20,469 nt of DNA from a virus. Location of the stretch: IMG/VR virus record IMGVR_UViG_3300007734_000440, positions 1-20,469 of that record. One strand, written 5' to 3'. A model generated the notes under the pieces. That model was not told the DNA's origin. It did no database searches and saw only the letters and a list, made by a program, of their open reading frames with translations. Shown here one piece after another: positions 378 to 4,166 of this stretch. Every line of letters starts with the position of its first letter. The stretch's first letter is position 1. A program made the position numbers and the translations under genes.

Positions 378-722
378 CTACTTACCGCCTTCCAAGTAAT
401 GAACGCATAATTCGATTGACTGAAAGATTTCTGTGAGTGTTTCATCTGAATCCAAAATTGGATCCCAGTCCCAACTGGTGACAATCTGACAAGCATTTTC
501 AGGGTGTTCAAAGTCCATACCAAAGTTGAGATTAACGAGAAGTCCCCCCTCAAAGGAGTCTGGAATTCTGCCTCCGTATAATTCGGTTGCGGTGAAGATA
601 AAATCTCCACATTCTCTCGTAAGCCAGTAATAATCTTCGTACGACTTTTCAGTTGTTAAGGAGAAGTCCTCATCACAAGCACCCCAAACATCTTCGTTAA
701 ACATAGCCCTAAAGTTATTCAT
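378..722 (-). CDS. Very acidic 114-aa phage protein of unknown function
   Basis: The start ATG at 722-720 has a strong leftward ribosome site (AAGGAGAA, about 7 bases upstream). I count roughly 24 Asp/Glu against 5 Lys/Arg, so the protein carries a net charge near -19 over 114 residues. It is also rich in Trp, Tyr and Phe. I see no signal peptide, membrane segment or catalytic motif. Small, highly acidic, early-region phage proteins are often DNA mimics or inhibitors of host enzymes (T7 Ocr is the classic case). That role is a guess from charge and size only. The gene is the first well-supported one in a leftward unit, read from a promoter-like region at 758-845. Confidence 0.8.
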   Translation of the reverse strand: MNNFRAMFNEDVWGACDEDFSLTTEKSYEDYYWLTRECGDFIFTATELYGGRIPDSFEGGLLVNLNFGMDFEHPENACQIVTSWDWDPILDSDETLTEIFQSIELCVHYLEGGK

Positions 723-909
723 ATTTTATTCTCCTTGGAGGGTAATTCCTCAAGCACAGATTACTATGCACCTTCAGGGTGTCAAGAGATATTTTCATAA
801 TTCTTTTAAGGTCAAGAGTCTCTTGAGTTTCTCTTAATAAGAGAAGAGGGGAATAGGATAGTAGAGAACAGATGGTAACCAGGAGAGTAACTAACCCCCT
901 TTCCTTCAT
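715..909 (-). CDS. Doubtful small hydrophobic protein upstream of the acidic protein
   Basis: A leftward frame of 64 codons runs from ATG at 909-907 to a stop at 715-717, overlapping the acidic gene's start by 8 bases. GAGGGG lies about 7 bases upstream of the ATG. The N-terminal part (residues 5-24, with GLVTLLVTICSLL) could form one membrane helix. Against it being a gene, the same DNA contains two adjacent perfect palindromes and two TTGAC(A/C) elements and is strongly pyrimidine-skewed, which fits a regulatory region better. Listed so that it is not overlooked. Confidence 0.2.
   Translation of the reverse strand: MKERGLVTLLVTICSLLSYSPLLLLRETQETLDLKRIMKISLDTLKVHSNLCLRNYPPRRIKYE
758..785 (-). 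promoter_or_regulatory. Candidate leftward sigma-70-type promoter
   Basis: Read leftward, TTGACA (785-780) is followed after 16 bases by TAATCT (763-758). The -35 is perfect and the -10 is weak (3 of 6 matches). It would start transcription about 30 bases before the acidic gene's ATG. A second leftward TTGACC lies farther upstream, within the adjacent palindromic region. Confidence 0.4.
812..845. promoter_or_regulatory. Two adjacent palindromes, possible operators
   Basis: TCAAGAG-T-CTCTTGA (812-826) is a perfect 15-base inverted repeat with a single central base. Immediately after it, TTCTCTT-AAT-AAGAGAA (829-845) is a second perfect inverted repeat. They lie just upstream of the leftward promoter candidate and share the element CTCTT/AAGAG. 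Paired dyads next to a promoter suggest binding sites for a dimeric regulator. Either could instead form an RNA hairpin. Confidence 0.45.
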
Positions 910-984
910 CTCCCTTCCCCTCACCAATTAAAACTATAAACCCTTGACCTTAGTTAAGCTGAATGTCTCCAGATAGTTAGGTGT

Positions 985-1073
985 GGTTATCCTTATGTAT
1001 ATACGTAGGTTATAACGTATGTATATGCTGGTAATAGTAGGGTTATGCGTATGTAATGCGTAGGTAATGCCTG
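985..1073. repeat. Tandem ~11-bp repeat array (iteron-like)
   Basis: From 1030 four adjacent 11-mers line up: GGTAATAGTAG (1030), GGTTATGCGTA (1041), TGTAATGCGTA (1052) and GGTAATGCCTG (1063). Upstream, weaker units keep nearly the same register: GGTTATCCTTA (985), GTATATACGTA (997), GGTTATAACGT (1008) and ATGTATATGCT (1019). The rough consensus is GGT(A/T)ATGCGTA. One unit is close to one turn of B-DNA, so a protein could bind each unit on the same face of the helix. Such arrays are typical of replication initiator sites, partition sites or cooperative regulator sites. No convincing reading frame crosses it. Confidence 0.6.
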
Positions 1074-1154
1074 AGCAATTCAATGTTAGCCTAGGGGGGG
1101 GTATGGGGACTGCTCAGGTGATGGTGTAAATATATACCCCTCCACCTCTTTTTT
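1068..1154 (+). terminator. GC-rich pseudoknot or terminator-like element
   Basis: Two perfect long pairings interlock. CCTGAGCA (1070-1077) pairs with TGCTCAGG (1111-1118). Also, 1095-1105 (a G-run ending GGTATG) pairs with 1133-1143 (TATACCCCTCC) over 11 bp, including two G-U pairs that exist only in a rightward transcript. The second stem is followed by six Ts at 1149-1154, as in a rightward rho-independent terminator. The two stems cannot both form as simple hairpins. They either make an H-type pseudoknot or act as alternative states (terminator versus antiterminator). Confidence 0.45.
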
Positions 1155-1177
1155 ACAGCCCTTTTTCAAATCCCTTA

Positions 1178-1206
1178 TTGACACTAAGTATTGCAATCAT
1201 TACACT
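1178..1206 (+). promoter_or_regulatory. Strong rightward sigma-70-type promoter candidate
   Basis: TTGACA (1178-1183), a 17-base spacer and TACACT (1201-1206) match the bacterial housekeeping consensus with a perfect -35 and ideal spacing. Transcription would begin near 1213. No credible gene follows for more than 500 bases, but the downstream sequence is densely self-complementary. The promoter is therefore best explained as that of a non-coding RNA, with possible read-through into the late operon. Confidence 0.6.
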
Positions 1207-1212
1207 TAGGAT

Positions 1213-1682
1213 ATATTTAGCGTCAATCGCCTTAACACCTTGAGCAAGAGTTACAATCTCGCCTTCTTTCAGGCAAGATGTTTAACACCTTTTCGCAAAG
1301 AGTTAATGGTTACCCAACTAAAACGGCCTCTGGTTGCTCGGTGGGCCTCATTGGTATCTCATACAACGCTGGACTTATAAACTTAACCATTAGCTTATAA
1401 GTTTGTGGTTAATAAAAACCTTTCTATCTTCAGATTTATCGAATATCTCGTCTTGGCAGACTTACCCTTATACTGCTCGTGGAGTCGTAACTCCTTCTCG
1501 GCAATCTTTACAAACGGGGTATGCCCCTAGCCTTTCGACCCTGTAAAGCGAAGACCCCAAGAGTAGCGACCGTAGTCGGATATGTCTACCCTCAGCATCC
1601 CAAGTAATCTTTTCAGAACGAAGCCTATTTGGTACTTGGTGGAATTCTGTTAAAAAAACCAGACCCAAATTCAGCATACCAC
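1213..1682 (+). ncRNA. Candidate large structured non-coding RNA
   Basis: No convincing ORF lies here, but perfect stems are packed along the whole stretch: TAAC-AC-CTT/AAG-A-GTTA (1233-1253), ATCT-C-GCCT/AGGC-A-AGAT (1256-1279), TTAAC-AC-CTTT/AAAG-A-GTTAA (1282-1306), GTCT/AGAC (1450-1461), GGAGT/ACTCC (1481-1494), CTTTACA/TGTAAAG (1506-1548) enclosing GGGG/CCCC (1516-1527), GTAG+CGAC/GTCG+CTAC (1563-1589), and CCAAGTA/TACTTGG (1600-1639). ACTTATAA/TTATAAGT (1373-1402) interlocks with TTAACCA/TGGTTAA (1383-1412) as a pseudoknot. A 12-bp long-range pairing joins 1301-1312 to 1384-1395. Extra G-U pairs favour the rightward strand. Size, intricacy and phage setting recall the GOLLD and ROOL RNA classes of phages, but I cannot confirm membership. 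The 3' end is uncertain. No tRNA or tmRNA signature was seen. Confidence 0.5.
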
Positions 1683-1714: not shown

Positions 1715-1742
1715 TTGACACAAGGTAAAATAGGGGTAAACC
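1715..1742 (+). promoter_or_regulatory. Candidate promoter of the late operon
   Basis: TTGACA (1715-1720) is followed after 16 bases by TAAACC (1737-1742). The -35 is perfect and the -10 is poor. It lies about 30 bases upstream of the first rightward gene (ATG 1771), whose ribosome site is AAGGGGG. A weak -10 can indicate that an activator or a phage factor is needed. Alternatively the operon is read from 1178 through the RNA region. Confidence 0.4.
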
Positions 1743-3717: not shown

Positions 3718-4166
3718 GTCAGCCACAAAGCACAGAAGTTTGGCAAGAAGAAAAGCCCAAGGGTGGTTTTGGCGTTGCGATGACCCCTGAGCAGTTTGAG
3801 GCTTTGGCTTTTAAAATGAATTTTATATCTGAAGAAACCGCAAGGAGAGAAAAGGCTGTTGCCGATTCTTTGCAAGATTTAAAAAAGATCGAGGCTGTTA
3901 GAACTTATGCTTCTTTTGTTAAAGACATTACAACGAGTATCCAAACGCTAAGTACGCTACCCAATACAGAATTAGTAAGAGAAGAATTATTAAAATCATT
4001 ACACAAAGTCAATGAGAATTTTACCCCCAGTAAGGAGCTACATTTTGAGGAAGAACTACAACTTCAAACTCTCTCCAGAGCAGTCGAAGCGAATCAAGCG
4101 AATGGTGTTCTATATGAACTTCACCCGCAATCCCAAGAAGAAGAAGGAAATGAGACAAAAAGTTAA
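3714..4166 (+). CDS. Hypothetical 150-aa protein before the small terminase
   Basis: The start ATG overlaps the previous stop (ATGA) and has AAAGGA upstream. The protein is hydrophilic and mostly helical, beginning with a disordered MSQPQSTEVWQEEKPK stretch followed by a MTPEQFEALAFKM helix. Its last ~50 codons (4012-4166) overlap an open frame that continues into the small terminase, and both frames read like plausible protein there. Either the terminase begins near 4150 and this gene is complete, or the true product ends earlier through a frame change. No function can be assigned. Its position suggests a packaging accessory protein. Confidence 0.65.
   Translation: MSQPQSTEVWQEEKPKGGFGVAMTPEQFEALAFKMNFISEETARREKAVADSLQDLKKIEAVRTYASFVKDITTSIQTLSTLPNTELVREELLKSLHKVNENFTPSKELHFEEELQLQTLSRAVEANQANGVLYELHPQSQEEEGNETKS

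Follow-up and report, generated by a model that had tools for sequence, protein, structure and literature searches.

Very few large and intricate RNAs are known from phages, and the functions of the two that resemble the present RNA most, GOLLD and ROOL, are not established. GOLLD expression rises at lysis. The pRNA of phage phi29, at about 174 nt, is much smaller and is part of a different type of packaging motor. Genes for tRNAs are often found close to the known ROOL and GOLLD RNAs, both of which form RNA-only nanocages (PMC12286853). ROOL is borne by phages and prophages and is about 550 nt long, with many helices, pseudoknots and no open frame, whereas GOLLD often exceeds 800 nt (PMC12286853). 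RNAs of Staphylococcus phage K have been likened to ROOL and GOLLD in one paper by their location and abundance only.

The locus described here lies in a virus record of 20,469 bases (the window, i.e., the whole stretch of DNA that was analyzed). The best reading of the sequence comparisons is that it encodes a new family of large phage RNA, kindred to GOLLD and ROOL and a member of neither. It is like ROOL in its phage location, its size, its many helices with pseudoknots and its lack of an open frame; it differs in that neither RNA matched the other by sequence or covariance, no tRNA genes lie nearby, and the phages are different. Like GOLLD, it is a large structured phage RNA from environmental sequence, but it is only about 500 nt long, and its most conserved part is the 5' half instead of the 3' half. 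Other large RNAs of Rfam 15, among them OLE and HEARO, are comparable in size and intricacy, without a match at any reported threshold. The phi29 pRNA, too, is encoded near packaging genes, and it is transcribed on its own as is predicted for the present RNA, which has no Rfam match. What generally marks large structured phage noncoding RNAs, the lack of a conserved frame and an extensive covarying structure with pseudoknots, was found.

At the left end of the window, small genes run leftward, and from position 1771 a rightward late operon encodes an HslV-like peptidase, terminase subunits, the portal and the major head protein. The peptidase gene (1956-2507; phrog_1040, E value of 1.4e-16), which lies near the head of the operon and is kept in relatives, possibly encodes a head maturation protease. 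The stretch from 722 to 1771 is devoid of any convincing gene, in agreement with an earlier sequence-only reading that had noticed about 850 such bases. Within it, positions 1139 to 1690 are conserved in related IMG/VR contigs. The RNA is carried by 12 contigs, including the window (11 distinct sequences, 8 of them full length). All belong to one phage clade, a family known from environmental DNA only, and every examined contig of the clade that spans the site has the RNA. In contig L176, a relative whose TerL is 76% identical, the RNA is absent, and a T-run element and one TTGACA are followed directly by the HslV-like gene; the RNA is thus dispensable in a relative. In the window and contig L006, the 5' domain is identical except for one indel, whereas the terL DNA is 87% identical. 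Constraint on this domain at least equals that on the large terminase gene in the nearest relatives and is somewhat less in L011 and L012. The region is noncoding: no reading frame is kept among the homologues inside the RNA, and gap lengths in their alignment have no triplet rhythm (11, 62 and 29 gaps with remainders of 0, 1 and 2 modulo 3). The stretch gave no sign of the translated protein that the sequence-only reading had named as a counterindication. The features are as follows.

1178 to 1666, minus strand: predicted gene for a large structured noncoding RNA, from covariation, strand asymmetry, promoter position and homologues in 11 other contigs; 3' end tentative at 1178, possibly 1139, to which conserved sequence reaches.
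1673 to 1681, minus strand: putative extended -10 box TGGTATGCT, whose consensus TGnTAnnnT does not vary among the 11 homologues and keeps a fixed distance to P1.
1471 to 1667, minus strand: 5' domain (P1 to P5), the most conserved part, on which covariance model R1 was built.
1640 to 1667, minus strand: helix P1, 1664-1667 with 1640-1643 and 1661-1662 with 1647-1648; CG, UA and AU observed at column pair 18/32.
1600 to 1639, minus strand: helix P2 (CCAAGUA/UACUUGG), 1633-1639 with 1600-1606, compensated at 6 of 7 pairs, all cells paired; its 5' strand is followed by the conserved ACCAAAUAGGC (minus strand).
1553 to 1599, minus strand: helix P3, 1586-1599 with 1553-1566, three compensated pairs, one with five pair types.
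1506 to 1548, minus strand: helix P4, 1542-1548 with 1506-1512, with inner hairpin P4a (1524-1527 with 1516-1519), from the consensus structure.
1481 to 1494, minus strand: hairpin P5 (GGAGU-UACG-ACUCC), two compensated pairs, one pair broken in two sequences.
1450 to 1461, minus strand: hairpin P6, 1458-1461 with 1450-1453, compensated at 3 of 4 pairs.
1329 to 1434, minus strand: pseudoknot PK1, 1431-1434 with 1329-1332 in the P9a loop, compensated at 3 of 4 pairs, all cells paired.
1407 to 1420, minus strand: short hairpin P7, 1418-1420 with 1407-1409, one compensated pair.
1373 to 1402, minus strand: hairpin P8, 1392-1402 with 1373-1383, five compensated pairs.
1307 to 1389, minus strand: pseudoknot PK2, P8 loop 1384-1389 with 1307-1312, two compensated pairs and, with a weak outermost pair, 89.6% pairing overall.
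1314 to 1354, minus strand: long-range helix P9, 1350-1354 with 1314-1318, compensated at 5 of 5 pairs, all cells paired.
About 1345-1347 with 1326-1328, minus strand: P9a, enclosed by P9.
1257 to 1278, minus strand: hairpin P10, 1272-1278 with 1257-1264, from the consensus structure.
1178 to 1226, minus strand: 3' hairpin P11 (UUGACGCUA/UAGUGUCAA), recognized by eye in the window, L005, L006 and L011 only and outside the 89-pair consensus count.
1178 to 1206, plus strand: TTGACA-17-TACACT match, -10 part not conserved, judged nonfunctional.
1715 to 1720, plus strand: TTGACA of a likely divergent late-operon promoter, retained on the right-hand side of the RNA by 9 of 11 homologues.
1139 to 1149, no strand assigned: CTCTTTTTTAC element at the left boundary of the RNA, with a close variant, TCTTTTTTTTAC, in the RNA-less L176.

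The hand-made consensus comprises 16 helices and 89 pairs, including the two pseudoknots, and 98.1% of its cells are paired. Compensatory changes on both sides occur at 37 pairs; none of 500 shuffles did as well as the consensus, and sliding one helix side by 1 to 3 columns lowers pairing to 36 to 51%. Because the consensus was chosen on the same alignment, a column-permutation test provides the more independent evidence: a structure-free search of the minus strand yielded 8 stems that each had three or more compensatory pairs, whereas 150 permutations that preserved the phylogeny gave at most 2 such stems and never reached 8. The strongest helices are P2, P3, P8, the long-range P9 and PK1. 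Depending on the relative, the two arms of PK1 are UCUG/CAGA, UCUA/UAGA or CUUG/CAAG. Several compensated pairs depend on L011 alone, and the compensation in P2 comes mostly through this contig. The region 3' of P10 aligns poorly, and the structure there is uncertain. An RNAalifold pairing of columns 133-145 with 197-208 was dropped in favor of P4 and P5, which are better paired. The patterns of substitution indicate that many helices and two pseudoknots are under selection. Many stems, pseudoknots and a long-range helix, features of the kind that the sequence-only reading had listed, are present, and the homologues show the covariation that it had proposed as a check. Its proposal of a large multihelix noncoding phage RNA is strongly supported as to the nature of the element, by the covariation and the lack of an Rfam match, and failed as to the promoter and the strand, which is minus and not plus.

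The region is a conserved, structured, noncoding element of the minus strand, and we consider it probable that it is an independent leftward noncoding RNA gene with its own host-type promoter, giving a trans-acting structural RNA and not the leader of a specific gene. Upstream of P1, the TGnTAnnnT positions are the only invariant ones. In each of the 11 homologues, 6 to 7 bases separate them from the first G of P1, and this constant distance places the predicted RNA 5' end near 1666. The conserved motif points to an extended -10 promoter on the minus strand at 1673-1681, for which no clear -35 box was found. From about 1666 the RNA would run leftward for about 490 to 530 nt, so that the limits proposed earlier, 1207 to 1682, mark the same region but are better moved to about 1666 for the 5' end and about 1178, possibly 1139, for the 3' end. 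A search of the homologues for a conserved intrinsic terminator on the minus strand found none; in L011 alone, a G7/C7 hairpin on that strand precedes a U-rich run, and transcription may read through from the RNA into the leftward genes. Because 9 of 11 homologues retain the TTGACA at 1715 (a rightward TTGACA beside the RNA is absent from L180 and L014), the late operon is likely a divergent neighbor of the RNA.

In the proposed mechanism, host polymerase would start at about 1666 and proceed leftward, back to back with the rightward terminase and capsid operon, producing a separate molecule from the RNA's own promoter. The transcript would fold domain by domain into a compact multidomain body closed by PK1 and PK2 and would then serve in trans during infection, as an RNA-only assembly or as an RNA-protein scaffold. 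Action in trans is probable for this phage RNA, and its structural role may be of the kind proposed for GOLLD and ROOL. By analogy with these RNAs, assembly into an oligomer is conceivable, though we regard it as unlikely; the same holds for the idea that a new RNA class builds an RNA-only or RNA-protein particle for infection, like GOLLD and ROOL without homology to them. If that idea were true, phages would have evolved particle-building large RNAs several times independently. An RNA-less relative, a variable gene setting, helices and pseudoknots backed by covariation and a predicted start together offer a clean comparison for the function of such RNAs, and a length of about 500 nt is convenient for cryo-electron microscopy and chemical probing.

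The strongest rival reading is a leader in cis that, through antitermination or attenuation of the elongating polymerase, would modify leftward transcription in general. One leader that acts on polymerase is the put RNA of phage HK022, and the present RNA is far larger. A leader would fit the position of the RNA at the start of leftward transcription and the lack of a conserved minus-strand terminator after it. Against this, the next leftward gene differs between close relatives: it is a different gene in the window, L005, L006, L011, L015 and L017, and the sole pair with a common one is L017 and L013 (46% identity). L015 and L017 are 96% identical in DNA across the RNA region yet have unrelated next leftward genes, which makes a gene-specific leader unlikely; no downstream gene conserved together with the RNA, as expected of a gene-specific cis leader, was found. 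The next gene in the window has its own TTGACA-16-TAATCT site, and about 490 nt with two pseudoknots goes far beyond the needs of known leaders. A polymerase-modifying leader may, however, be indifferent to the gene that follows. We regard a cis-acting leader as improbable beside an independent RNA gene. Among relatives, the genes on the leftward side of the RNA vary greatly; in L006, the adjoining gene (421-1404, minus strand) encodes an ArdC-like antirestriction protein with ArdcN and zincin-like domains.

A plus-strand RNA, forming a long 5' leader of the late operon from a promoter at 1178-1206, as the sequence-only reading would have it, is very unlikely. The TTGACA-17-TACACT match exists in the window, its TTGACA is kept in most relatives, and in L014 and L180 no further TTGACA precedes the late genes. 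However, its -10 half is not conserved, the region contains 2 promoter-like sites against 2.9 expected from shuffles, and 9 of 11 homologues have a second TTGACA on the right-hand side of the RNA; pairing within P11 may explain the TTGACA that had been taken as a -35 box. The plus strand of the window folds no better than its dinucleotide shuffles (z = +0.56, with 71 of the 100 shuffles equally good or better), an outcome named beforehand as counting against structure, whereas the minus strand does (z = -2.19, a fold equaled by 1 of 100 shuffles). When each strand is compared with its own shuffles, minus does better than plus in 10 of 11 homologues, and the consensus folding energies are -48.9 kcal/mol for the minus strand and -24.7 kcal/mol for the plus strand. 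G-U wobbles legal on one strand only favor the minus strand by 65 to 4 in the helices used, but this helix list was picked on the minus strand. A fair count needs strand-neutral helices selected by Watson-Crick pairs alone, and there the ratio is 10 to 3. As a contrary case, one pair of P5 fits a plus-strand RNA better in two sequences. The structure belongs to the minus strand.

That the element is a divergent GOLLD, ROOL or other cataloged RNA missed by the Rfam models is very unlikely, although size range, phage location and pseudoknotted complexity are alike; a divergent member of GOLLD or ROOL had been one of two identities offered by the sequence-only reading, and the other, a class distinct from known ones, agrees with strong covariation and the lack of an Rfam match. 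No family in Rfam 15, OLE, HEARO and the tested large RNAs included, matched at the gathering threshold, and at E values up to 10 three homologues gave chance hits only (e.g., snoRNAs and P10), with neither GOLLD nor ROOL among them. The ROOL model (RF03087) recovered the known pMP118 copy as a positive control (E value of 1.1e-29) and had no match in the window and four homologue contigs; conversely, model R1 had no match in the pMP118 ROOL locus. The GOLLD model (RF02032), run without a positive control, did not match these five contigs. Staphylococcus phage K, tried as a ROOL control, gave no match and was replaced by pMP118. There are no tRNA genes near the RNA in the window and L011, the contigs being fragments. 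A blastn search against named phages and plasmids gave no credible match, and no description of the RNA was found among open-access papers, whose coverage is incomplete. Further homologues were sought with three other DNA patterns and with terminase and HslV-like protein searches; most of the new pattern matches were due to chance, and model R1 was negative in them. A 19-base core pattern matched bacterial genomes 13 times, never in the setting of this RNA and mostly in clpP-like coding sequence, and these matches were rejected as chance. The clpP-like genes concerned (in L242, L243, L244, L247 to L250 and L252; Victivallales and others) read the pattern as codons for QSEDPK.

The least probable alternative is an element acting at the DNA level, in packaging, replication or recombination, with palindromes that only look like RNA stems, to which the adjoining terminase genes and a conserved G-run/T-run element lend some color, but DNA hairpins would show no one-strand G-U preference, DNA does not need pseudoknots with compensated pairs, and the G-run/T-run element, present also in the RNA-less L176, is separate from the RNA. 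This element (window 1094-1149) consists of a G run, mostly of 6 to 9 bases, GGGAC or similar, about 50 bases, a C-rich arm and then CTCTTTTTTAC. The arrangement occurs at the same place in L005, L006, L011, L012, L013, L015 and L017 as well as in L176. It could insulate the late operon as a plus-strand terminator, or else serve as a site for packaging or replication.

Two kinds of repeats turned up in contig L011 and in none of the other contigs examined for them. A leader of 30 to 41 bases (CTTTGAGCAAACTNATTAAAACACAAACTACC...GGAGG, minus strand) is present in about 11 copies between 100 and 3560, one before most of the leftward small genes. In addition, the conserved RNA core (4127-4153) is repeated with 26 of 27 bases, in the same sense, at 2513-2539, inside a small leftward gene (2410-2649), in the protein stretch LPWGLRST.
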